Below, piece by piece: positions 440-12,122 of a stretch of DNA of 33,074 nt. Below the pieces are notes generated by a model. It searched no databases, had not been told where the DNA came from, and saw nothing but the letters and a program-made list of their open reading frames with translations. The first letter of the stretch is position 1; every line of letters starts with the position of its first letter. This stretch comes from Comamonas denitrificans. Its GTDB lineage: Bacteria > Pseudomonadota > Gammaproteobacteria > Burkholderiales > Burkholderiaceae_C. Location of the stretch: the NCBI RefSeq assembly GCF_017368815.1, contig NZ_JAFNME010000028.1:1-33074 (forward strand). The letters are read 5' to 3'. Made by a program: the position numbers and the translations under genes.

Positions 440-2155
440 TCAACGCAACGTGTAATACGGCTTCCCCTGCGCTGAATTCTTGGTGAGAAAACCTTCTGGT
501 AAGCACCATTTCTTGAAAAGCCGCGACGCCTGCACCTGCGCAGAAGGAGAGTCTCCTAACCCGAGCAACTCCCGTAGCAGGGCATTGTCGATCCGCTGGT
601 GGTCACTCAGGTACTCGCGTACCAGCTCTGCATAGCGCACCGGGTTCAGCCCCCGTGTCCGCGTGTAGGCCGCTTTGCCTTTGATAACCGTGGCGACGCC
701 CTTCGAGAGGTGAAACGTCGCTGCCGAGGTATGCCCTTTGCGCTCCAGCAAATTCAGCGGTGCAGCGCACATGGCCTCTAGCACCGCGCGCGCATCGTCA
801 CGCGGCAGCTGCAGCACTTGCGCTGCTTGGCCCACATCCATGAACGATTGGCCCACCAGGGCATCCAGCACCAGCAAATGGTCCAGCGTCACTACTGCTC
901 CTGCGGCATCCAGCCGCGCTGCCACTTGGGCGACGGCGCTGTGGGTTTCGCGGTTGAATAAGCGCAGGGTGACGGTGTAGCCATCGGTCTGGTATTGCGG
1001 ACGGCGCTTGCCGTACACCAGGGCAGAGCGGAAGATGCGCCGCCGCCCAATGCCCGATGACTCCACCAGCCGCAGCTTTACCAGCGCATTGGCCAGTGTG
1101 CGGTTGCGCGGCACCGCCTCGTGCCGCAGGATGTTCTCGGGCGTGATGCCGGCCACAAACCCGCCAGGGCTGGTCACCACCAGCTCTTGGGCTGAATGCC
1201 GCACCAAAATCTCGCCAGGGTTCAGATAGTCGCGGTGTGTCAAGGCATTCAGTACCGCTTCGCGTACGCCCTCAATGGGGTACTGCGGAATGCGCAGCTT
1301 GAACAGACCCAGCTCAATTTCCCGCTCCGGATTCAGCGGGCCCACAAACACCTGCTCCATGCGCTCCACCGCTTCGAGCAATGGCAAGCGATCAATATCG
1401 TTGCGCGCCACCGTGGTCTCGCTGTCGTGCAGCACATAGTGGAACTGCGCCTGGGGGCAACAGCGGGCCAATACCTCCCGGCGCGCAAACAGCAAGACCC
1501 CGGTGTGGGTCACTACCCCGTCACGCACAGCCTCCAGGCCTTGCAAAAACTCTAGGTCTGGCAAGTCAAGCAGGCCAGAGGACGGCGCCTTGCTGCGCAG
1601 CACCTGGCGGGCACGCTCCAACTGCAAAGGGTCCAGGTCGGACAACGCCACCCCCTGGGCGGGCGCACCGCTCCAGTCCAGCGCCGCGCTGGCCACCTGG
1701 GCGCGTTGAAACGCCACGCGATCCAGCGGCATGCAGTTCTTGCCCACCCGCTGCTTGAACAGGCCCGCCGCCGTGCCGTAGGGCTTTTGCTGGCCCTCGG
1801 GCACACGCACTATCAACAGCTTGCCTGTGCCCTCGGGCACGGACAACTCCAGCACCTCGGCCTCGATGCCTGGGCGCGTGCCGTCATAAATACCGCGCTT
1901 GAACACATCCACATCATGGCCATGCGTGCCCACAATGGCCTGCGCACGGCCCCGCTGCTTGTCGGCCACGCCAAACACCACCACACCCCCGGCAGCATTG
2001 GCAAAGCACACCGCGTATTCGCAGGCCACCTTCAAATCTTCCTTGGGGCCCAAGGAAGGCTTGAAGTCCAGAAACTCGCTCTCCAGCGCATCGGCGATAG
2101 CGTCATCCAACTGGGCCAGCAGCGCCAGAATGTCTTCATTCGAGGGAATGCTCAT
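440..2155 (-). CDS. AlbA_2 / RecG-like ATP-binding protein of the RM locus
   Basis: This 571-residue protein has an N-terminal AlbA_2 (Schlafen-type) domain at about residues 22-155, with ESEFLDFK and CFANAAGGVVVFGVAD as its characteristic motifs. A central GHKL-like ATPase module (HATPase_c_4) at about 285-400 shows EAVLNALTHRDY, SPGGF, a PRN motif and SSGIGRRRI. The C-terminal 170 residues look like helix-turn-helix segments. Such proteins, often named putative transcriptional regulators or RecG-related, commonly accompany Type I restriction loci and defence islands; their exact role is not settled. The gene lies 103 bp downstream of hsdS on the same strand, with a palindromic element between, so it may be co-transcribed. 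It is the last gene before the IS-damaged edge. Confidence 0.8.
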   Translation of the reverse strand: MSIPSNEDILALLAQLDDAIADALESEFLDFKPSLGPKEDLKVACEYAVCFANAAGGVVVFGVADKQRGRAQAIVGTHGHDVDVFKRGIYDGTRPGIEAEVLELSVPEGTGKLLIVRVPEGQQKPYGTAAGLFKQRVGKNCMPLDRVAFQRAQVASAALDWSGAPAQGVALSDLDPLQLERARQVLRSKAPSSGLLDLPDLEFLQGLEAVRDGVVTHTGVLLFARREVLARCCPQAQFHYVLHDSETTVARNDIDRLPLLEAVERMEQVFVGPLNPEREIELGLFKLRIPQYPIEGVREAVLNALTHRDYLNPGEILVRHSAQELVVTSPGGFVAGITPENILRHEAVPRNRTLANALVKLRLVESSGIGRRRIFRSALVYGKRRPQYQTDGYTVTLRLFNRETHSAVAQVAARLDAAGAVVTLDHLLVLDALVGQSFMDVGQAAQVLQLPRDDARAVLEAMCAAPLNLLERKGHTSAATFHLSKGVATVIKGKAAYTRTRGLNPVRYAELVREYLSDHQRIDNALLRELLGLGDSPSAQVQASRLFKKWCLPEGFLTKNSAQGKPYYTLR

Positions 2156-2202
2156 GCAGTGGCCTCCGGTGATCGGGGTTGGGCATATTTAAAATTAGAG
2201 GA

Positions 2203-2249
2203 AAATAGGCCTATACCCCTTATGGGACAAGCGCAAGAAGCTATTAAAA
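2203..2249. repeat. Palindromic AGCT element, copy 1 (degenerate)
   Basis: This AT-rich stretch begins AAAATAGGCC and ends AAGCGCAAGAAGCTATTAAAA, which matches the right-hand end of the other AGCT-ended elements in the window. The left arm matches poorly, so this copy is probably decayed. It fills most of the gap between hsdS and the AlbA_2 ATPase gene. Confidence 0.45.
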
Positions 2250-2258
2250 GTAAAGCAC

Positions 2259-3512
2259 TCATACTGACAGCGTACCGCCCAAGGCGGCTTCGGTGGCGGC
2301 CTGGGCTTCGGGCAGGTGCAGTTGGCCGGAGATTAGGCGGGGGAGCAAGGTGTCGCGCAGGGTGGAGAGGGTTTGGGTTTTGCTCTCGTTAACGGCGATA
2401 CGCTGTTTCAGCGGTAGCACAAGTTCGTCAAAACCGTTCAATACCGCCACGGATGGAATGACGATGGGTAGGCACGCCAGCTTTGCTCGACCCAATTCGG
2501 TCTGCCCGGTAGACCCCTCTCCCATTGCTTCAATTTCAGGCTGTTTGCGGGCCATGAATTGCCCGAGATAGGGCCAACTTAGATCAGACCCTGCACGTAC
2601 AACCGTAACGTGAGAGTCAACGATGATCTGCTCTGGAAGGCGCAAAACTTGTGCAATGCGACCCAATGTGCCAACGCCTGTGGAGTTCACCAATACATCG
2701 CCGACTGCTACTTCTCGACCATCAATTTTGCGCTGTGAGGGGTCATGCCTACGCCCCTTGGAGAAGTCAACAGAGAAGTCTCGAACGCACTTTTGGTTGA
2801 GGACAAGGACACCACCAGCTTCAATGTACTTGGGTGACAAACCGCGATTCAGGTAGCCACACACTGAGCCAAGCGTTCCAACCCGCCACCCCCTCGGCAC
2901 CTCCCCCAACTCCGACGTTTCAAACCCATCGGGAAACAGCGCTGCGGTGGCCTCGTCCATGCCTTCAGGCGTGCGGCCTTCCATCTTGGCGCGCACGGGG
3001 TCGAAATCGACGAACCAGGACTTGAACAGGGCCTGGGCGATGGCTTCAAGGGTGGCGTTGGTTTCGCGCAGGAGGGTGATGCGGTCGTCGAGGGCGCCTA
3101 CGATGCCCGAGATGGCTCGCTGTTCTCTCGGGTAAGGAATCTGCGTTTCTATCGCATTCAACGTTGTCTGATTGATCAACGGCTGGCCGGAGCCGCTGCG
3201 CCAGTTATTCAGATTCAGCTGCTTGAGTAGGTAGTACAGAAAGTTAGGATCGTTCTCTCCCTTTGCGGTTGCACGGATTGCGTTATCCGTCACCCAGCAA
3301 GCTTCGCGAGAAAAGTGAACCGAACCACAGTAGGAGCCAACGCGCCCAATCACGATCGTGTTCGGCGGGGAGTTGAACTCCCTCGCTTGACCAATTAATC
3401 CGTTTGACCCAAATACCGGAACAGGGGCTGCTTCTTCCCGCTCTGGGCTGGTTCGTCCGTTTGCAAAGCTCAGAACTTCTTCAAGTCGTGCGACACGCAA
3501 CTCAGAACTCAT
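2259..3512 (-). CDS. hsdS: Type I restriction-modification specificity subunit HsdS
   Basis: HsdS supplies the DNA sequence recognition of a Type I methyltransferase (M2S) and restriction (R2M2S) complex. The 417-residue protein has the expected architecture: target-recognition domain 1 at about 1-130, a conserved helical spacer at about 131-185 (EQRAISGIVGALDDRI, ALFKSWFVDFDPVRAK), target-recognition domain 2 at about 205-365, and a second spacer ending in TLRDTLLPRLISGQL. Two different TRDs imply a bipartite asymmetric target. The start ATG overlaps the stop of the DUF1016 gene by 4 bp (3509-3512), indicating translational coupling. The first bases of the gene lie inside a 41-bp direct repeat also found at the hsdM/DUF1016 junction. 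Confidence 0.92.
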   Translation of the reverse strand: MSSELRVARLEEVLSFANGRTSPEREEAAPVPVFGSNGLIGQAREFNSPPNTIVIGRVGSYCGSVHFSREACWVTDNAIRATAKGENDPNFLYYLLKQLNLNNWRSGSGQPLINQTTLNAIETQIPYPREQRAISGIVGALDDRITLLRETNATLEAIAQALFKSWFVDFDPVRAKMEGRTPEGMDEATAALFPDGFETSELGEVPRGWRVGTLGSVCGYLNRGLSPKYIEAGGVLVLNQKCVRDFSVDFSKGRRHDPSQRKIDGREVAVGDVLVNSTGVGTLGRIAQVLRLPEQIIVDSHVTVVRAGSDLSWPYLGQFMARKQPEIEAMGEGSTGQTELGRAKLACLPIVIPSVAVLNGFDELVLPLKQRIAVNESKTQTLSTLRDTLLPRLISGQLHLPEAQAATEAALGGTLSV

Positions 3513-3542
3513 ACCCCAGCCCCCCCAGCTTCGCCCGAATCA
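3502..3542. repeat. 41-bp direct repeat, copy B (DUF1016/hsdS junction)
   Basis: Bases 3502-3542 match 4581-4621 at 39 of 41 positions, the differences being at 3509 and 3523. The repeat spans the end of the DUF1016 gene and the start of hsdS. In another frame it still encodes the tail of HsdM ([12 protein letters not shown]), so it looks like the original hsdM-hsdS junction left behind after the nuclease gene was inserted. Confidence 0.9.
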
Positions 3543-4591
3543 TCGCCACCCGCAGCATCCAGCCCCAACTCCCTCTCCAATTGCTCAATGCTGGGCAGCT
3601 GCCCCCGCAGCGCCTCGGGCAGGGTATGGCTGAGGTGGTAGGTCGCAAGGCCCATCGGCTTTTGCATATCGCTCAGGGCGTATTCAGCCACCAGTCGGTC
3701 TTTGCTTTTGCACAGCAGCAGGCCAATGGTGGGCTGGTCGCCCTCGCGGCGCAGTTGTTCGTCCACGGCCTTCAGGTAGAAGTTGAGCTTGCCGGCAAAC
3801 TCAGGCTCAAAGTCCACGGTTTTCAGCTCCACCACCACGTAGCAGTGCAGGCGTGCGTGATAGAAAAGCAGATCCAAGAAGAAGTCGCGCTCGCCCACTT
3901 GCAGCGGCACCTGGCGGCCCATGTAGGCAAAGCCTGCGCCCAGTTCCAGCAAAAACTGGGTCACATGCTCGATGAGGGCGGTTTCCAGCTCGCGTTCGGT
4001 GTGTTCTGGGGTCAGGGAGAGAAAGTCAAACTGGTACGGGTCTTTGAGCAGTTGCACCGCCAAGTCAGATTGCACGGCGGGCAGGGTCTGGGCAAAGTTG
4101 GTAATGGCCTTGCCCTCGCGCTGCCACAGACCGCTTTCGATCTGGTGGGTGAGCACGCTGCGGCTCCAGCCGTAAGTTTGCGTGGCTTGCACGTAGTACA
4201 GCGCCTCGTCCGGCTGTTTGCACTTGGTCAGGATGGCGAGGTGATGGCCCCAGGGAATGGCCATCAATTGCGCAACAGGCTGTTGCGCAATTGCTGGTGA
4301 GGCATTCCAGAAGCTGTACCAGCGCCGTATCTGCTCCAGATTGCGCTTGGAAAACCCCTTGACCTCAGGAAACTCGCGCATCAAGTCGGCGCTGAGCTGG
4401 TTCAAAAAACCGCTTCCCCACGCAAACTGCGTTTGTTTGGCCACCATGTCGGCGCCCAGTTCCCAATAAAACTGCAGCATGGCCGTGTTGACGGCCACCG
4501 CCGCCTTGAGCTGTACCTGGCGGTAGCGGGCCTTCAGCTCGACCAGCCACGGGCCATATCCGTCAGCGGGTGCAGTTATTTCAGAACCCAT
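3509..4591 (-). CDS. DUF1016/YhcG-family PD-(D/E)xK nuclease
   Basis: The 360-residue protein has an N-terminal DUF1016_N helical domain (about 12-170, with [19 protein letters not shown] and [10 protein letters not shown]) and a C-terminal PD-(D/E)xK nuclease fold (about 180-340). The likely catalytic residues are D240 (in FFLDLLFYH) and E255/K257 (in VVVELK). Family members are often encoded inside or beside Type I restriction loci; their role is not well defined. The gene overlaps hsdM by 11 bp and hsdS by 4 bp, so all three form one translationally coupled operon. It is bracketed by a 41-bp direct repeat, suggesting insertion as a single-gene cassette. Its last residues (SGEAGGAGV) are the HsdM tail read in another frame, not a conserved part of the family. 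Confidence 0.9.
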
Positions 4592-4621
4592 ACCCCAGCC
4601 CTCCCAGCTTCGCCCGAATCA
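4581..4621. repeat. 41-bp direct repeat, copy A (hsdM/DUF1016 junction)
   Basis: This is the partner of 3502-3542, 1079 bp away. It covers the last codons of hsdM ([12 protein letters not shown] then stop) and the first codons of the DUF1016 gene. Both copies contain an ATG(A/G)GTTCTGA start region on the minus strand, so the same sequence provides the overlapping start codon for the next gene at each junction. Confidence 0.9.
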
Positions 4622-6143
4622 GCGCATCCAGCTCTGCGCCCTTGGCCATTTGTTCGCCCAGTTTTTCGGTGAGCTTTTGCATCTTGTCGGCAAAGGCTTC
4701 GTCGTCGTCTTCCACCGCCTCAGCGCCCACGTAGCGGCCCGGGGTGAGCACATGGCCGTGCTGGGCGATTTCGGCCAGGGGCACGCTGCGGCAAAAACCG
4801 GGCTGGTCGTGGTAGTCGGTAATGCTGGCGCCCGTTTCCACCTCGCCACGCCAGGCGGCGACGGTTTCGGCAATGCGGGTGATGGCGGCATCGTCCAGCT
4901 CGGCCTGCACGCGGCTGATCATGCGGCCCTGCTTGCGCGCGTCGATAAACAGCACTTCGCCCTTGCGCGTTTTCTGCTTGGCCAGGAACCACAGGCAGGC
5001 GGGGATTTGCGTGTTGAAGAACAACTGGCCGGGCAGGGCCACCATGACTTCGACCACGTCGGCATCGACCATGGCGGCGCGGATCACGCCTTCGTTGTTC
5101 TGGCTGCTGCTCATGCTGCCGTTGGCCAGCACAATGCCGGCGCGGCCCGTGGGGCGCAGGTGGTGCAGCATGTGCTGCAGCCAGGCGTAGTTGGCGTTGC
5201 CTTGCGGGGGCGTGCCATACACCCAGCGCGGGTCGCCCTCTAGGCTGCCGTGCCACCAGTCGCTGATGTTGAAGGGCGGGTTGGCCAGGATGTAGTCAGC
5301 GCGCAGGTCGGGGTGCTGGTTGCGGATAAAGGTGTCGCCCGGCTCTTTGCCCAGGTTGAAGTCAATGCCGCGAATGGCCAGGTTCATGGCCGCCAGGCGC
5401 CAGGTGGTAGGGTTGGATTCTTGGCCATAAATACTGACATCGCCCGTCCTGCCTCCGTGTGCAGCTATGAATTTTTCTGACTGCACAAACATGCCGCCTG
5501 ATCCGCAACAGGGGTCATACACCTTGCCCTGGTGCGGGGCCAGCACGGCCACCAGGGTTTTGACAATGCTGGCGGGGGTGTAGAACTGGCCGCCTTTTTT
5601 GCCTTCGGCGCTAGCAAATTGGCCAAGAAAGTATTCATAGACTTGGCCCAGCACGTCGCGCGCTTGGCTGGGGCTATCGCCAAAGCCGATGGTGGAAATC
5701 AAATCCACCAACTCGCCCAGCTTGCCATCGGGCAATTGGGCGCGGGCGTAGCGCTTGTCCAAAATGCCTTTGAGCTTGGGGTTCTCCAGCTCGATCAGCG
5801 CCAGCGCGTCGTCAATGCGTTTGCCAATGTCGGGCTGCTTGGCGCTAGAGCGCAGGTCTTCCCAGCGGGCACCTTCGGGCACCCAGAACACGTTGTCGGC
5901 GGTGTAGTAGTCACGGTCTTCGAGTTCGGCGGCAATGTCTTGGCCAGAGGCATCGCCATAGAACAGCTCATCGTCGGGGTCGCGCAGGCGCTGGGTGAGC
6001 AGTGCGGTGTGGCCGGTAAAGCTGTCCGAGATGTATTTGATAAAAATCAGGCCCAGCACCAGGTGCTTGTATTCGGCCGCATCCATGTTGGCGCGCAGCT
6101 TGTCAGCCGTGGCCCAGAGGGTTTTTTTAATGTCGTCGAGCAT
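4581..6143 (-). CDS. hsdM: Type I restriction-modification methyltransferase subunit HsdM
   Basis: HsdM transfers a methyl group from S-adenosylmethionine to N6 of adenine in the target chosen by HsdS. The 520-residue product has an N-terminal HsdM_N helical domain (1-about 150) and the N6_Mtase domain with motif X GGQFYTP (184-190), SAM-binding motif [11 protein letters not shown] (210-219) and catalytic NPPF (288-291), so it appears catalytically intact. ATG 6141-6143, giving [10 protein letters not shown], matches family starts. The open frame continues 72 codons upstream into the tRNA-Val gene, but those residues are unconserved. It is the promoter-proximal gene of the operon. No HsdR (SF2 helicase-nuclease) is encoded anywhere in the window. 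Confidence 0.93.
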
Positions 6144-6276
6144 GTTGTTACAAAAGTGCCATGGCAAGCCACGGACTATAGGCGACAAAAGCCAGGCGTT
6201 AGCTGGGACCAACAACCGCAAACGCTTGGCTGGGGAACGCCCAGAACGATGCCAAGCACGACAAAAAGCCAGACGA

Positions 6277-6315
6277 AAAAAAACCTGTTTCTCTTGGGGA
6301 AAAACAGGTTTTTTT
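6277..6315 (-). terminator. Rho-independent terminator of the tRNA-Val pair
   Basis: A perfect 13-bp stem joins AAAAAACCTGTTT (6278-6290) to AAACAGGTTTTTT (6302-6314) with an 11-base loop and flanking A and T tracts on both sides. It lies directly downstream of the tRNA genes on the minus strand and separates them from the hsd operon. It could also act in the plus direction. Confidence 0.85.
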
Positions 6316-6322
6316 GAATTTT

Positions 6323-6397
6323 TGGTGGGTCGTAGTGGGATCGAACCACTGGCTTCCACCGTGTGAAGGTGGCACTCTACCGCTGAGTTAACGACCC
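6323..6397 (-). tRNA. tRNA-Val (anticodon CAC)
   Basis: The minus strand folds into a full cloverleaf: acceptor stem GGGTCGT/ACGACCC, D-arm with CTCAGCGGTAGAG, anticodon stem CCACC/GGTGG around loop TTCACAC, and T-arm with GGTTCGATCCC. The anticodon is CAC, reading GUG. An encoded CCA (6323-6325) is included. It lies 8 nt downstream of a second tRNA with the same anticodon but a different body. Confidence 0.93.
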
Positions 6398-6550: not shown

Positions 6551-7261
6551 TCAGGATTGGGCACTGCGCCAAACTGTTTTTCCGCCACTGGCTTTGTCGA
6601 TGGCGGCCAAGGTTTCTTCGTGGGCGGCCAACTCTTGGGCACTGGCGGGCAAGACGGGCAGTTGATACTGGCGCAGGTCGATGCGCTGGGCCGGGCTGTC
6701 GTGTGCGCTGCCGGACTGGCCATCGTCGCCCAACAGGGCGTGCTGGCCACGCGTCATGTAGATGTAAACATCGGCCAGCAATTGGGCATCGAGCAATGCG
6801 CCGTGCAAGGTGCGCCCGCTGTTGTCCACGCCCAGTCGGTCGCACAGGGCATCGAGCGAGTTGCGTTTGCCAGGAAAGAGTTCTTTGGCCAGGGCCAGCG
6901 AGTCGGTTACGCCGGCCACAGCGGTTTTCAGTGGGGGCAGGCCCAGCAGGGAAAACTCTTTCTCCAAAAAGCCCATGTCAAACGGTGCGTTGTGGATGAT
7001 CAGTTGCGCCCCTTGCAGGTAGGCCAGGATGTCGCGGGCTTTTTCAGCAAATTTGGGCTTGTCGCTTAAAAACTGCGTGGTCAAGCCGTGTACGCGCAGG
7101 GCATCTTCGTGGCTGTCGCGCTCGGGGTTGAAGTACAGGTGCAGGTTGTTGCCGGTGGGTTTGCGCCCGACCAGCTCAACGCAGCCCAGCTCAATGATCC
7201 GATCGCCGTTGTCGGGCGAGAGGCCGGTGGTTTCTGTGTCCAGAACAATGAAACGCTGCAT
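6551..7261 (-). CDS. dnaQ: DNA polymerase III epsilon subunit (3'-5' proofreading exonuclease)
   Basis: DnaQ is the proofreading subunit of the replicative polymerase core. The 236-residue product has the DEDDh exonuclease domain with all five catalytic positions visible: D8 and E10 (LDTETTG), D95 (HNAPFDMGFL), and H153 and D158 (LHGALLDAQLLADVY). The C-terminal 45 residues form the usual variable tail that contacts the alpha subunit. Length agrees with the family (about 230-245). The start ATG at 7259-7261 directly precedes the first beta strand. It sits downstream of iscA with only a palindromic repeat between, and upstream of the tRNA-Val pair. Confidence 0.95.
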   Translation of the reverse strand: MQRFIVLDTETTGLSPDNGDRIIELGCVELVGRKPTGNNLHLYFNPERDSHEDALRVHGLTTQFLSDKPKFAEKARDILAYLQGAQLIIHNAPFDMGFLEKEFSLLGLPPLKTAVAGVTDSLALAKELFPGKRNSLDALCDRLGVDNSGRTLHGALLDAQLLADVYIYMTRGQHALLGDDGQSGSAHDSPAQRIDLRQYQLPVLPASAQELAAHEETLAAIDKASGGKTVWRSAQS

Positions 7262-7268
7262 ATTTTTT

Positions 7269-7353
7269 ATAGCTTGTTACGCTTTAAATACGGGGTTTCA
7301 GATACTTTTAATATCAAAAACAAGGTAAATAAAGCGCAAGCAGCTCCTTTAAA
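7269..7353. repeat. Palindromic AGCT element, copy 2 (iscA-dnaQ)
   Basis: The element starts ATAGCTTGTTACGCTT and ends AAGCGCAAGCAGCTCCTTT AAA. It shares GCTTTAAATAC and TTTCAGATACTT, in the same order and nearly the same spacing, with copy 5 at 27261-27347. Its right end covers the iscA stop codon. It is probably a small non-autonomous or REP-like element; stem-loop formation in the transcript is possible. Confidence 0.75.
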
Positions 7354-7675
7354 TGCGGAAACTTTCACCGCAACCACAACGATCGCGCTCATTGGGGTTG
7401 GTGAATTGGAAGCTCTCGTTCAAGCCGTTGCGCACGTAATCAATTTGCGTGCCATCGAGCAAGGCGAGGTGTTCCGGGGCAATCAGCAGCTTGGTGCCGT
7501 GCTGCTCAAACACCACGTCTTCGGCCCTGGCTTCATCGGCGTATTCCAGTTGGTAGGCAAAGCCGGAGCAGCCGGTGGTTTTAATCCCCAGCCGCACGCC
7601 AATGCCGTGGCCTTGGCGCTGCAGGTAGTTGCTGACGTGGCGAGCTGCACGCTCGGTAACCGTAATCGTTGCCAT
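7349..7675 (-). CDS. iscA: Iron-sulfur cluster assembly protein IscA
   Basis: This 108-residue A-type carrier protein has the three conserved cysteines that bind iron or an Fe-S cluster: C36 (TTGCSGFAY) and C100/C102 (RCGCGESF), the canonical IscA/ErpA pattern. A clear ribosome binding site, GGAGAG, precedes ATG 7673-7675. It follows the iscU-like gene by 27 bp as the last gene of the iscR-iscS-iscU-iscA cluster. The usual hscB, hscA and fdx genes do not follow. The stop codon falls within the adjoining palindromic element. IscA rather than ErpA is chosen from context. Confidence 0.92.
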   Translation of the reverse strand: MATITVTERAARHVSNYLQRQGHGIGVRLGIKTTGCSGFAYQLEYADEARAEDVVFEQHGTKLLIAPEHLALLDGTQIDYVRNGLNESFQFTNPNERDRCGCGESFRI

Positions 7676-7702: not shown

Positions 7703-8104
7703 CTAATGATTGACGCGGTGGTGTTGGCGGCAATCGGCCACCGCGCTGCGCACGGCATCTTGCACCAACATGGCACCAAACACCCGCGCGGGTGGTATTT
7801 GCAGCGCTTGCACCAAGCGGCTGCTGGTCAGCTGCAGGGCCTCATCCAGGGTTTTGCCGTGTAGCCATTCGGTCATTAACGAGGCGGCGGCAATCGTGGC
7901 GGTGTCGCCATAGGCTTGAAAGCGCACGGCCTCGATGCGTTGGGTGCCGATGGGGCATTGCAAGTGCAGTTGCACCACCGCCCCCGTTTCTTGGCTGCCC
8001 ACACGGCCCACGCCCACCCCAGGGGCCGGGGTGGCCAAGCTGCCCACATTGCGTGGGTGGCGGCTGTGCTCTAAGAGCAAATCACTGTAGTGCTGAGAAG
8101 CCAT
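7703..8104 (-). CDS. IscU-like scaffold homologue lacking all cluster-ligand cysteines
   Basis: The 133-residue protein is clearly colinear with IscU: YSDLLLEHSRHPRNVGS at the start, VGVGRVG, then FQAYGDTATIAAASLMTEWLHGKTLDEA. However, the three invariant cysteines are replaced. E. coli C37 (with D39) aligns with T40 (and A42), C63 with D67, and C106 (with H105) with G110 (and F109). The LPPVK motif recognised by the chaperone HscA reads IPPAR. Remaining cysteines C50 and C125 are not at ligand positions. It starts 6 bp after iscS, so co-translation with the desulfurase is likely. It should not be able to hold a canonical [2Fe-2S] cluster; it may be a regulatory or structural partner of IscS, or a decaying paralogue. 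A normal iscU would be expected elsewhere in the genome. Confidence 0.85.
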   Translation of the reverse strand: MASQHYSDLLLEHSRHPRNVGSLATPAPGVGVGRVGSQETGAVVQLHLQCPIGTQRIEAVRFQAYGDTATIAAASLMTEWLHGKTLDEALQLTSSRLVQALQIPPARVFGAMLVQDAVRSAVADCRQHHRVNH

Positions 8105-8110
8105 AACTCT

Positions 8111-9310
8111 TTACCGCCCAACGAAACCTAAACCCGCAGGCACCGCCAGTGGGCTAATGGCTTGCAGCGCTAGCACCGCGCTGCGGATGCAGGCCAGCGC
8201 CTGGGCGATGTCGGCCTCGGTGCTAAAGCGCCCGTAGCTGATGCGCAAACTGCTGTGTGCCAAGGGGTGGCTGCGCCCCAAGGCTTGCAGCACATGGCTG
8301 GGTTCGATGCTGGCCGAGGTGCAGGCCGAGCCGCTGGACAGCGCGACGGTGTCGCTGACGCGGGTCATGAGCGCTTCGCCCTCAATGCCGGCAAAGCTGA
8401 AGTTCAGGTTGTGCGGCACGCGCTGCGTGGCATCGCCGTTGAGCACCACACCGGGCACATCGGCCAAACCTGCCAGCACTTGCTGCTGCAACTGGCGGGC
8501 ATGGGCGTTGTCGTGCGCCATTTCAAGCTGGGCCAGGCGAAAGGCTTCGCCCATGCCCACGATTTGGTGGGTGGGCAAGGTGCCCGAGCGCAGGCCGCGC
8601 TCATGCCCACCGCCATGCATTTGCGCCTGCAGGCGCACGCGCGGCTGGCGGCGCACGTACAGGGCACCGATGCCTTTGGGGCCATAGGTTTTGTGCGAGG
8701 CCAGGCTCATCAAATCCACCTGCATGGCCTGCACATCCAGCGCCACTTTGCCCGTGGCCTGGGCCGCATCAACGTGAAACAGCACGCCCTGCTGCCGGCA
8801 CAGCTGGCCAATGGCGGCGCTGTCGTGTACCACGCCGATTTCGTTGTTCACCGCCATGACGCTGACCAGAATGGTGTCCGGCCGCATGGCCGCTTGCAGC
8901 GCGCTTAAATCCACCAGGCCATTGGGTTGCACATCCAGAAAAGTGACGGCAAAGCCTTGCTGCTCTAAGGCCCGCATGGTGTCGAGCACGGCTTTGTGCT
9001 CAGTTTTCAGGGTAATAAGGTGGCGACCTTTGTCCTGATAAGCCAGGGCTGCGCCCGTGATGGCCAGGTTATTGGACTCGGTGGCCCCACTCGTCCAAAC
9101 CACGTCGCGGGCCTGGGCACCAATCAGGGCGGCCACATGGCTGCGGGCCTGCTCGACGGCTTCCTCGGCCTCCCAGCCCCAGGCGTGGGTGTTGGATGCG
9201 GGGTTGCCAAAATGCTCGGCCAGCCACGGCACCATGGCCTGCACGACCCGAGGATCGACCGGGGTGGTGGCGGCATAGTCCAAATAGATAGGGCGATTGA
9301 ACGACGGCAC
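8111..9310 (-). CDS. iscS: Cysteine desulfurase IscS
   Basis: IscS converts cysteine to alanine with PLP and passes the sulfur as a persulfide to Fe-S assembly and tRNA thiolation. The 399-residue protein keeps the PLP lysine K207 (SHKTYGPKG), H105 (TEHKAVLD), D181 (HVDAAQ) and the catalytic loop cysteine C330 (SSGSACTSA), so it should be active. The C-terminus after about residue 375 ([14 protein letters not shown]) does not resemble the conserved tail of E. coli IscS, the region that docks IscU, matching the divergence of the next gene. The start is GTG (9308-9310), as no in-frame ATG precedes the conserved [11 protein letters not shown]. It lies 11 bp after iscR. Confidence 0.93.
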
Positions 9311-9321
9311 CGAAAGCTCAC

Positions 9322-9864
9322 TCAGGATTTGTTGCTACTAAAAACATTGCCCAGCGCGAACACCGAATTGGGGGCGTTTACGCGAATGGGTTTGACCACG
9401 GGGGCCGAAGAAATGGCGCGGCGCACCACCGGCTTGTCTTCGATTTGGATACCGCGTGCCAGCTGGTCATCGACCAGCTTTTGCAAGGTGACGGAGTTTA
9501 AAAATTCAACCATGTGGTTGTTCAGGGCCGCCCACAGGTCGTGCGTCATGCAGCGGCCTTGTTCGCCCAGACAGTTTTCTTTGCCGCCACACTGGGTGGC
9601 ATCAATGGGTTCATCGACCGAGGTGATGATGTCGGTCACCGTAATGTCGGCCGCTTTGCGGGCCAGGGTGTAGCCGCCGCCGGGGCCTCGGGTGGATTCG
9701 ACCAACTCGTTGCGGCGCAATTTGCCAAACAGTTGCTCTAGATAGGACAGCGAAATTTGCTGGCGCTGGCTGATTGCCGCCAAGGTGACGGGGCCGCTGT
9801 TTTGGCGCAGGGCCAGATCAATCATGGCAGTTACGGCAAAACGGCCTTTGGTGGTCAAACGCAT
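9322..9864 (-). CDS. iscR: Rrf2-family Fe-S regulator IscR
   Basis: IscR is a [2Fe-2S]-sensing repressor/activator of Fe-S assembly genes. The 180-residue product has the Rrf2 winged helix (1-about 80: [44 protein letters not shown]). The cluster-binding segment has C92, C98 and C105 with H108 (CMTH), the Cys3-His ligand set. The spacing between the last two cysteines is one residue longer than in E. coli. The C-terminal tail of about 50 residues is longer than in E. coli (162 aa). ATG 9862-9864 follows AAAGGAGC at good distance; an upstream start would add 14 hydrophobic unconserved residues. It is the first gene of the isc operon and probably regulates it. Confidence 0.93.
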
Positions 9865-10061: not shown

Positions 10062-12122
10062 TTAGCCAAGCCCGAGCAGCTGATTTTTCAAGATGGCCAG
10101 CTGGTCGCGCAAGCGGGCGGCAGATTCGAACTCCAGGCGTTTGGCCGATTCGAGCATCTCTTTTTCAACGCGCTTGATTTCTTTGGCCAGTTCCACTTCG
10201 GACAAGGCGGCCGCAGCCTGCGCCCCAGCGGCGGCGCGGGCCACCTCGCGGCTTTGTTGCTGGGATTTATCGCTGTACACGCCGTCGATCAAATCCTTGA
10301 CCCGCTTGACGATGGCGGTGGGGACGATGCCGTTGGCCAGGTTGAACGCCGTTTGCTTGGCGCGGCGGCGCTCGGTTTCGTCCATGGCTTTGCGCATGGA
10401 ATCGGTGATGCGGTCGGCGTACAAAATCGCCTTGCCGTGCAAGTTGCGCGCCGCACGGCCTATGGTTTGAATCAGGCTGCGCTCAGAGCGCAAAAAGCCT
10501 TCTTTATCGGCATCCAAAATCGCCACCAACGAGACTTCGGGAATGTCCAGCCCTTCGCGCAGCAGGTTGATGCCCACCAGCACGTCAAACGCTCCCAGGC
10601 GCAGGTCGCGGATGATTTCTACGCGCTCGACCGTGTCCACATCCGAGTGCAAATAGCGCACTTTGACGCCGTTTTCGCTCAGGTACTCGGTCAGCTGCTC
10701 GGCCATGCGTTTGGTCAGCGTGGTGATCAGCACCCGCTCATGGCAGGCCACGCGCTGGTGAATTTCCTGCAGCACATCATCGACTTGGCTGCTGGCTGGG
10801 CGCACTTCAATCTCAGGATCGACCAAGCCGGTGGGGCGCACCAATTGCTCCACCGTCTGGCCACTGTGCTGTTTTTCGTAATCCGCCGGGGTGGCTGAGA
10901 CAAACACCACCTGGCGCATGCGCTGCTCAAACTCTTCCAGCTTCAAAGGCCGGTTGTCCAGCGCCGACGGCAGGCGAAAGCCATACTCGACCAAGGTGGT
11001 TTTGCGCGAGCGGTCGCCGTTGTACATGGCCGAGAGCTGCCCCATCATCTGGTGGCTTTCATCCAAAAACATCAGCGCATCTTTGGGCAGGTAGTCGATC
11101 AGCGTGGCCGGTGGCTCGCCCGGTGCCGCGCCAGAAAGGTGGCGCGAATAGTTCTCGATGCCCTTGCAGTGGCCCAGCTCAGAAAGCATTTCCAGGTCAA
11201 AGCGGGTGCGCTGCTCCAGGCGCTGGGCCTCTACCAGCTTGCCCGCCTCGACCAGCTCGGCCACACGCTGGCGCAATTCTTCCTTGATGGTTTCCACCGC
11301 CCGCAGCACCACATCGCGCGGGGTGACGTAGTGGCTGCTGGGGTACACCGCAAAGCGCGGAATGCGCTGCTGCACCTGGCCGGTGAGCGGGTCAAACAAT
11401 TGCAGGCCATCGACCTCGTCGTCAAATAGCTCAATGCGGATGGCCAGCTCAGAATGCTCGGCCGGGAACACGTCGATGGTGTCGCCACGCACGCGAAACT
11501 TGCCCCGGCTGAAATCGTCGTCGTTGCGCTGGTACTGCATGCGCACCAGCTGGGCGATCAGCTCGCGCTGGGCAATGCGGTCGCCCACGCGCAGCATCAG
11601 CACCATCTGGTGGTAGCTCTCGGGCTCGCCAATGCCGTAGATGGCCGAGACGGTGGCCACAATGATCACATCGCGCCGCTCCAGCAGGCTTTTGGTGCAG
11701 GACAGGCGCATTTGCTCAATATGCTCGTTGATGGCGCTGTCTTTTTCGATGAACAGATCGCGCTGCGGCACGTAGGCTTCGGGCTGGTAATAGTCGTAAT
11801 AGCTGACGAAATACTCCACCGCGTTTTGCGGGAAAAACTCGCGAAACTCGCTGTACAACTGCGCCGCCAGCGTCTTGTTGGGCGCAAACACAATCGCCGG
11901 GCGGCCCAATTGGGCAATGACGTTGGCCATGGTGAAGGTCTTGCCCGAACCGGTCACGCCCAGCAGGGTCTGAAACGCCTCGCCATCGCGCACGCCTTCG
12001 ACCAGCTGGGCAATCGCCGTGGGCTGGTCACCTGCGGGCGGATAGGGCTGGAACAGTGCAAACGGGGAATTGTCGAAATGCACGAATTGTCCCGCCGGGG
12101 CGGGTGAGGGAGTTTTTTGCAT
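10062..12122 (-). CDS. uvrB: Excinuclease ABC subunit B
   Basis: UvrB is the damage-verifying helicase-like subunit of nucleotide excision repair; it is loaded by UvrA and recruits UvrC. The 686-residue product has Walker A GVTGSGKT (55-62), the beta-hairpin [12 protein letters not shown] (108-119) that inserts between DNA strands, DESHQMM, helicase motifs V and VI ([22 protein letters not shown]), and a C-terminal UVR motif ([21 protein letters not shown]) that binds UvrC. It is full length. Only 39 bp separate it from the tetR-type gene on the same strand, and no CTGT-N8-ACAG SOS box is visible there, so its promoter may have been displaced by the incoming efflux cassette. Confidence 0.97.

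Follow-up and report, generated by a model that had tools for sequence, protein, structure and literature searches.

The isc operon of Comamonas denitrificans encodes, in the place of the Fe-S cluster scaffold IscU, an IscU-fold protein that has kept none of the cluster-ligand positions. This protein and its relatives, here designated IscU*, were found in 14 genomes (six of the window genus and eight of a family sample), all 14 of which possess SUF. We somewhat favor the interpretation that SUF took over cluster assembly, whereupon IscU lost its scaffolding function and was kept as a putative IscS-binding subunit.

An IscU-fold protein without cluster ligands in the isc locus

The window, i.e. 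the complete analysed stretch of 33,074 nucleotides, contains the following features in and around the isc locus.

6551..7261, minus strand: dnaQ-like exonuclease gene (RNase_T), conserved downstream neighbour (locus comparison, profile)
7262..7348, no strand: place of hscB-hscA-fdx in canonical relatives, vacant here (locus comparison)
7349..7675, minus strand: iscA, three cysteines kept (profile match, alignment)
7703..8104, minus strand: iscU*, encoding a 133-aa protein of the IscU fold that lacks cluster ligands (ORF, profile match, alignment)
7775..7780, minus strand: codons of Phe109-Gly110, at the positions of E. coli H105-C106 (alignment)
7784..7798, minus strand: IPPAR, replacing the LPPVK motif (alignment)
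7904..7906, minus strand: codon of Asp67, at the position of E. coli C63 (alignment)
7979..7981, minus strand: codon of Ala42, at the position of E. coli D39 (alignment)
7985..7987, minus strand: codon of Thr40, at the position of E. coli C37 (alignment)
8111..9310, minus strand: iscS, with no other IscS detected in the genome; catalytic Cys328 intact, tail ending early after SPL(386)
9322..9864, minus strand: iscR (relatives start with MRLTTKGRF, here at 9864; the listed ORF extends from 9906)
10062..12122, minus strand: uvrB, conserved upstream neighbour (named by reading of the ORF; locus comparison)

The reading frame at 7703..8104 had been described in the first-pass annotation as intact and colinear with IscU, which is correct for the minus strand; the plus-strand frame over the same interval contains stops. 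The protein matched PF01592 (NifU_N) with an E value of 1.7e-25 and 90.1 bits, above the gathering cut-off of 22 bits. Its scores with TIGR01999 (IscU; 99 bits, cut-off 192.4) and TIGR01994 (SufU; 38.4 bits, cut-off 92.5) were below the thresholds of both families. Alignment to E. coli IscU bore out the replacements noticed at first pass, namely C37 by Thr, D39 by Ala, C63 by Asp, H105 by Phe and C106 by Gly, as well as the change of LPPVK to IPPAR. The K59 position is occupied by Gln, and the two remaining cysteines are both located off the ligand positions. An AlphaFold2 model (pLDDT 93.3, pTM 0.87) predicted a well-defined fold. The protein thus has the fold of an IscU scaffold and its orthologous place in the order uvrB-iscR-iscS-iscU-iscA-...-dnaQ, and it lacks the ligand set C37/C63/C106 with D39 and H105, the LPPVK motif and the hscBA-fdx partners (hscB and fdx being sought at the locus). 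Since no cluster-ligand position is kept, it is not a canonical scaffold, as had been proposed; the sulfur relay that had been offered as one possible role is unlikely for a protein with zero cysteines at any of these positions. Full-length relatives (P0001 to P0005) showed 98, 83, 73, 65 and 70% identity, P0001 comprising 171 sequences. Relatives in other assemblies and data and related genomes share the trait, and sequencing error was rejected as the cause of the cysteine loss.

The order uvrB-iscR-iscS-iscU-iscA-hscB-hscA-fdx-dnaQ was present in all 11 canonical loci that were laid out. The 14 IscU* loci have the same gene order minus hscB, hscA and fdx, and iscU* adjoins iscS in every one of them, with a spacing of 6 nt in the window; in G011 the contig begins within iscS and therefore covers neither uvrB nor iscR. 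In four of the 14 genomes (G163, G455, G398, G336), iscA was not found at the locus and iscU* is followed by dnaQ. Loci shrunk to iscR-iscS-iscU*, in which iscA, hscBA and fdx were not found, were seen in L117, L118, L120 and L121. The first-pass annotation had correctly pointed to the missing hscBA-fdx after iscA and to a divergent IscS tail, which is also short, and had taken both as signs of a specialised second system. This last view has to be revised: the operon of the window is the ancestral isc locus in its normal place, stripped in situ, whereas a different contig carries SUF, which is the second Fe-S system of the genome.

Other observations concern the surroundings of isc loci. Beside dnaQ, the window carries a type I restriction-modification cluster (440-6359, minus strand) with a Schlafen/AlbA_2 protein, HsdS, a YhcG-type PDDEXK nuclease and HsdM. 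In G263, IscR (L119:8232-8792, minus strand) has ENGMGGGKC where relatives have ENCMGGGKC, so that a presumed cluster cysteine may be lost. An order-level relative encodes a shorter NifU_N-type protein with cysteines of its own (NPLCGDC, RGCLLC; L049, around 6767-7042, minus strand).

Fe-S cluster assembly genes of the window genome

The window genome (G000; 3.0 Mb, 99.98% complete, 74 contigs) encodes two NifU_N proteins, the IscU* of the window and one SufU (153.8 bits by TIGR01994). The search for a second iscU with three cysteines, which had been suggested at first pass, thus yielded none. SufU is part of a sufBCDSU operon on a contig other than the window's; SufB, SufC, SufS and SufU scored above the NCBIfam cut-offs and SufD below (170.9 vs. 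222 bits). The second IscS-like match of the genome was SufS with 32% identity, and the one IscA relative elsewhere was ErpA. The likewise suggested search for hscBA-fdx gave no HscA above the cut-off in the genome and no hscB or fdx at the locus; the genome also yielded no CyaY. A second isc system was therefore rejected: IscU and IscS were each found once, and no HscA reached the cut-off.

IscU* occurs together with SUF and without HscA and CyaY

Within the genus, SUFBD was detected in 6 of 53 genomes, and exactly these six carry a low-scoring IscU that was read as IscU*. Canonical IscU (by score) was present in 45 of the 53 genomes, HscA above the cut-off also in 45, and two incomplete genomes (G050 and G061, 75 and 59% complete) had no IscU match in this search. 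In the family sample, SUFBD was found in 58 of 399 genomes including G000. The other 57 comprise 44 with canonical IscU by score, eight with IscU*, which had intermediate scores and were identified on reading, and five with only a SufU-like match. The family search for IscU covered the SUFBD-positive genomes (58 of 399, the other 341 being SUFBD-negative), so that outside the genus the link with SUF was examined from the SUF side only; for IscUs without a fetched locus, canonical status refers to the score alone.

HscA above the cut-off was present in 41 of the 44 canonical SUF genomes of the family, in none of the eight with IscU* and in one of the five without IscU. Among the three canonical genomes lacking a full HscA, two have it in pieces (G394, G458) and one has none (G386). 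CyaY was found in 15 of 15 canonical genomes examined from g1, g21 and g87. G386 is an exception, having canonical IscU but neither HscA above the cut-off nor CyaY; its isc contig stops 75 bases past the IscU match. Taking all 14 IscU* genomes together, neither CyaY nor HscA above the cut-off was found in any. Three SUF genomes (G162, G175, G405; L126, L127, L128) have kept iscR-iscS-iscA without an iscU between iscS and iscA. G339 and G410 (85 and 87% complete), which lack IscU and IscS and keep CyaY or HscA, are read as assembly gaps.

Further IscU-like proteins with altered ligands were noticed: a divergent group (P0011 to P0014) with YGCPHC or YGCPYC near the C63 position and no cysteine at the C37 and C106 positions, P0008 without the three ligand cysteines and with D39 replaced by Glu and S107 by Ala, and P0009 without two of the ligand cysteines.

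Origins of IscU* and SUF

A DnaK tree was computed with 13 of the 14 IscU* genomes, G005 being left out because only a fragment was available, and 47 others. IscU* appeared in three places, namely in the window genus, in G243 with G384, and in G419 with g112. Supported branches forced three changes, and a single change occurred in 0% of 200 bootstrap trees. In a quick IscS tree using 75 of 94 rows, two changes suffice, because the fast-evolving IscS proteins of the window genus join those of g112 on a long branch. An AU test on IscS accepted vertical arrangements (p 0.69 and 0.80). A single origin via operon transfer, though possible, is not needed, as the AU test allows vertical descent and the loci are syntenic.

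In the SufB tree, the 23 SufB sequences of the family that were used formed one clade, in which the window genus stood, with weak support, beside G188, a member of another genus. Since in addition 47 of the 53 members of the genus had no SUFBD match, SUF was probably gained by transfer within the family.

Uneven loss of ligands and retention of the fold

For comparison with the 14 IscU* proteins, 81 canonical IscUs with retrieved loci were used. None of the 14 retains C37 or D39 (Glu replacing D39 in eight); C63 is lost in 12, C106 in six and H105 in three. C106 is consequently kept in eight proteins and C63 in two; neither is present in the window protein, G005, G012, G419, G398 and G336. G38, G62, W76, P101 and other positions are kept in 14 of 14, and the reading frame is intact in all. 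Y3 persists in 13 of the 14 proteins and is missing from a fusion protein described below; its exchange for Ala reportedly disrupts the interface with IscS (PMC13423590). K59 is likewise kept in 13 and Y61 in 12, with Phe in the other two. Position 103, which in E. coli IscU is a lysine reported to face IscS (PMC2854127), is Lys or Arg in 12 of 14.

At the level of alignment cells, 21 of 70 were retained at the ligand positions, 92 of 140 at the IscS interface according to Shi et al. and 614 of 1036 at other invariant positions. A special conservation of the IscS interface is unsupported overall (66% vs. 59% elsewhere). N90, S107 and E111 were lost in 32 of 42 cells, the corresponding figure for all other invariant positions being 438 of 1134, and S107 is Ala in 12 of the 14 proteins. 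Permutation over positions gave modest p values of 0.027 for the five ligand positions and 0.033 for N90/S107/E111; cell-level Fisher values ignore relatedness and were not relied on. D39A/V, N90A, S107A and E111A are reported to shift E. coli IscU to the structured state (PMC13423590). These patterns suggest that, once scaffolding was gone, cluster-handling residues costly to stability may have been released while the IscS-docking fold was kept. S107A, C63S and T60A arose in parallel in separate IscU* lineages.

Purifying selection on IscU*

Values of ω were determined according to NG86 with a codon bootstrap for 95% limits. Among near pairs, IscU* showed ω of 0.185 (0.088-0.333) for G005-G012 and 0.181 (0.092-0.326) for G398-G336, the members of both pairs lacking C63 and C106, 0.200 (0.111-0.343) for G024-G065 and 0.252 (0.143-0.413) for G243-G384, the last two pairs having C106. 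For G000-G005, ω was 0.148 (0.046-0.275) vs. 0.201 for IscS, at a dS of about 1.5, which is near saturation; G163-G455 gave 0.235 with an upper limit of 1.12, as there were too few differences. The upper limits were thus 0.28-0.41 in five of six near pairs. IscS had ω of 0.08-0.20 in the same six pairs, and canonical IscU 0 to 0.09 in seven pairs and up to 0.10 in another set. In the distant pairs of the window genus, with dS above 1.2 (G000-G024, G000-G065 and three that involve G011), values were 0.30-0.50 for IscU* and 0.20-0.28 for IscS. IscU* is therefore under purifying selection in near pairs, with a constraint that is weaker than that on canonical IscU and either relaxed or shifting. 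The dN/dS well below 1 for which the first-pass annotation had asked was thus found among near relatives (0.15-0.25), the distant pairs being looser. The same annotation had considered its reading undone if a sole IscU had been altered by sequencing error or random decay. The window protein is indeed the sole IscU of its genome, but error and random decay are not borne out by the near-pair values.

The IscU docking face of IscS and an IscS-IscU* fusion

The IscU footprint on IscS was defined as positions 309-316, 347 and 379-391 after Shi et al., and the invariant positions in it were counted. In IscU* genomes, 155 of 210 footprint cells were kept, compared to 16 of 45 where iscU is missing (three genomes of two genera); for the rest of the IscS core the numbers were 2279 of 2458 (93%) and 476 of 531 (90%). 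SPL(384-386) was present in 14 of 14 IscS proteins with IscU* and in none of the three without iscU. Of the cells in the TusA footprint, 65 of 69 and 13 of 15 were retained, respectively, and the sulfur outlet of IscS to TusA seems to be preserved. The window genus had the weakest docking face, retaining 55 of 90 cells (in G000, 8 of 15 positions). In G000, G024 and G065, moreover, IscS has a cut tail, a part that is reported to be required for IscU binding in E. coli (PMC2854127).

In G011, which belongs to a Comamonas-group lineage, IscS and IscU* are encoded in one reading frame (L043:1-1494; 498 aa on the contig). A distinct full-length IscS-IscU* fusion of 543 aa, P0022, is represented by five sequences on four contigs and is 95% identical to that of G011 over the IscU part. 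In the alignment, the first IscU helix of the fusion is shortened and unrecognisable. As E. coli IscU without residues 1-12 is reported to fail to bind IscS (PMC2854127), the covalent tether would compensate for the lost binding. An AlphaFold2 model of P0022 had a pLDDT of 50.8 and a pTM of 0.42 with a shallow alignment and was not used. P0038, an IscS-IscU protein with canonical cysteines represented by one sequence among the best 120 of 7998 matches listed, looks like an assembly join and was not counted.

Possible function of IscU*

In IscU* lineages, SufBCD would now build the Fe-S clusters, and IscS would be kept as a sulfur source for TusA and tRNA thiolation, thiamine and the molybdenum cofactor. 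IscU*, being more rigid and free of a cluster, would dock on IscS where canonical IscU does and, by occupying or tuning the desulfurase, might set the share of sulfur that is left for other clients; in one lineage, this dock may have been made permanent via gene fusion. IscU and TusA are reported to compete for IscS in vitro with Kd values of about 3 and 8 μM, IscU alone causing a slight rise of IscS activity and a fall of the TusA-stimulated activity (PMC11302665). In a cluster-free IscU unable to accept sulfur, only the effect that competes with TusA would remain. The lack of a canonical scaffold together with near-pair ω well below 1 makes the role of an IscS partner, one of those proposed at first pass, the best reading; for the putative binding itself, the IscS-IscU* fusion and the retained docking face of IscS are indirect indications. 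Relaxed ω, the eroded IscS dock and the cut tail in the window genus count against this reading, and the three SUF genomes without iscU count against its necessity, as the role must be dispensable somewhere. A more far-reaching proposal, which we consider somewhat doubtful, is that IscU has a separable, cluster-independent function on the desulfurase, and that, relieved of scaffolding by SUF, it was three times stripped of its cluster site, frataxin and HscBA-Fdx, kept as a dedicated, structurally stabilised regulatory subunit of IscS and once fused to it.

The main rival is that IscU became dispensable after the takeover by SUF and is fading under weak selection, the sampled genomes representing stages toward deletion. 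The uneven loss of ligands (C37 and D39 in 14 of 14, C63 in 12, C106 in six), the ω above canonical values that reaches 0.30-0.50 in distant pairs, the eroded IscS dock of the window genus and the absence of iscU beside a kept iscR-iscS-iscA in G162, G175 and G405 would all be expected of such a relic. We nevertheless regard this as unlikely, though deserving serious consideration, in view of the upper ω limits below 0.42 in five of six near pairs, with G000-G005 at a dS of about 1.5, the intact frame in all 14 genomes, the parallel changes S107A, C63S and T60A and the fusion to IscS in G011 and P0022.

Two other functions appear improbable. IscU* might be a reduced sulfur or metal carrier that takes up a persulfide or metal via C106 or C63 and passes it on, which would suit the eight proteins with C106 and the two with C63; both cysteines are absent from the window protein and five others, and selection is no weaker without C106 (0.185, 0.181) than with it (0.200, 0.252). 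With an equally small chance, IscU* might serve a new partner other than IscS, such as SUF proteins or IscA. Within the genus it is indeed confined to the six SUF genomes, the 45 with canonical IscU lacking it, and the IscS docking face is eroded there; yet iscU* adjoins iscS in all 14 genomes and is fused to it in one, persists in four whose locus has no iscA, and is on a different contig than SUF in the window genome. That the open frame is an artefact, due to sequencing error or maintained merely for translation of the downstream iscA, is suggested by nothing but the short iscS-iscU spacing and can practically be dismissed given its presence in other assemblies, the four genomes without iscA downstream and ω values indicating selection at the protein level.

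Comparison with known systems

The IscU fold, SUF beside a reduced ISC and solitary IscS are already known. A selected ligand-free IscU next to IscS and an IscS-IscU fusion appear to be new, as a literature search, mostly of papers outside subscription, returned no report of a Cys-less IscU beside IscS or of an IscS-IscU fusion. IscU* represents a natural experiment in separate lineages, in which the parts of ISC serving clusters only (IscU ligands, HscA, CyaY and the isc fdx) are set apart from those serving IscS. Frataxin disappeared along with the IscU ligands, IscS and the fold of IscU staying behind, which suggests that it is scaffolding by IscU, and not IscS in itself, that depends on frataxin. 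To find out how the desulfurase responds to IscU binding, both the cluster-free IscU and its fusion with IscS may also serve as tools.

Compared to the IscU of ISC systems (TIGR01999, E. coli IscU, human ISCU2), IscU* lacks the ligands and has an altered LPPVK motif, and in contrast to canonical ISC its loci are devoid of hscBA-fdx and its genomes of CyaY and above-cut-off HscA. SufU, the zinc-dependent sulfur acceptor of SufS, belongs to the same superfamily (PF01592) and is present in the window genome in addition to IscU*. Unlike frataxin-bearing ISC systems, the 14 IscU* genomes yielded no CyaY. Frataxin/CyaY and IscX have folds unrelated to that of IscU. Like these modulators, which bind IscS (PMC2854127, PMC11302665), IscU* would act as a cluster-free IscS binder. 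The truncated ISC of M. tuberculosis, as described in PMC10848736, is alike in that SUF makes the clusters and IscS is kept; there, iscU is gone, whereas here a ligand-free IscU has been kept beside IscS.
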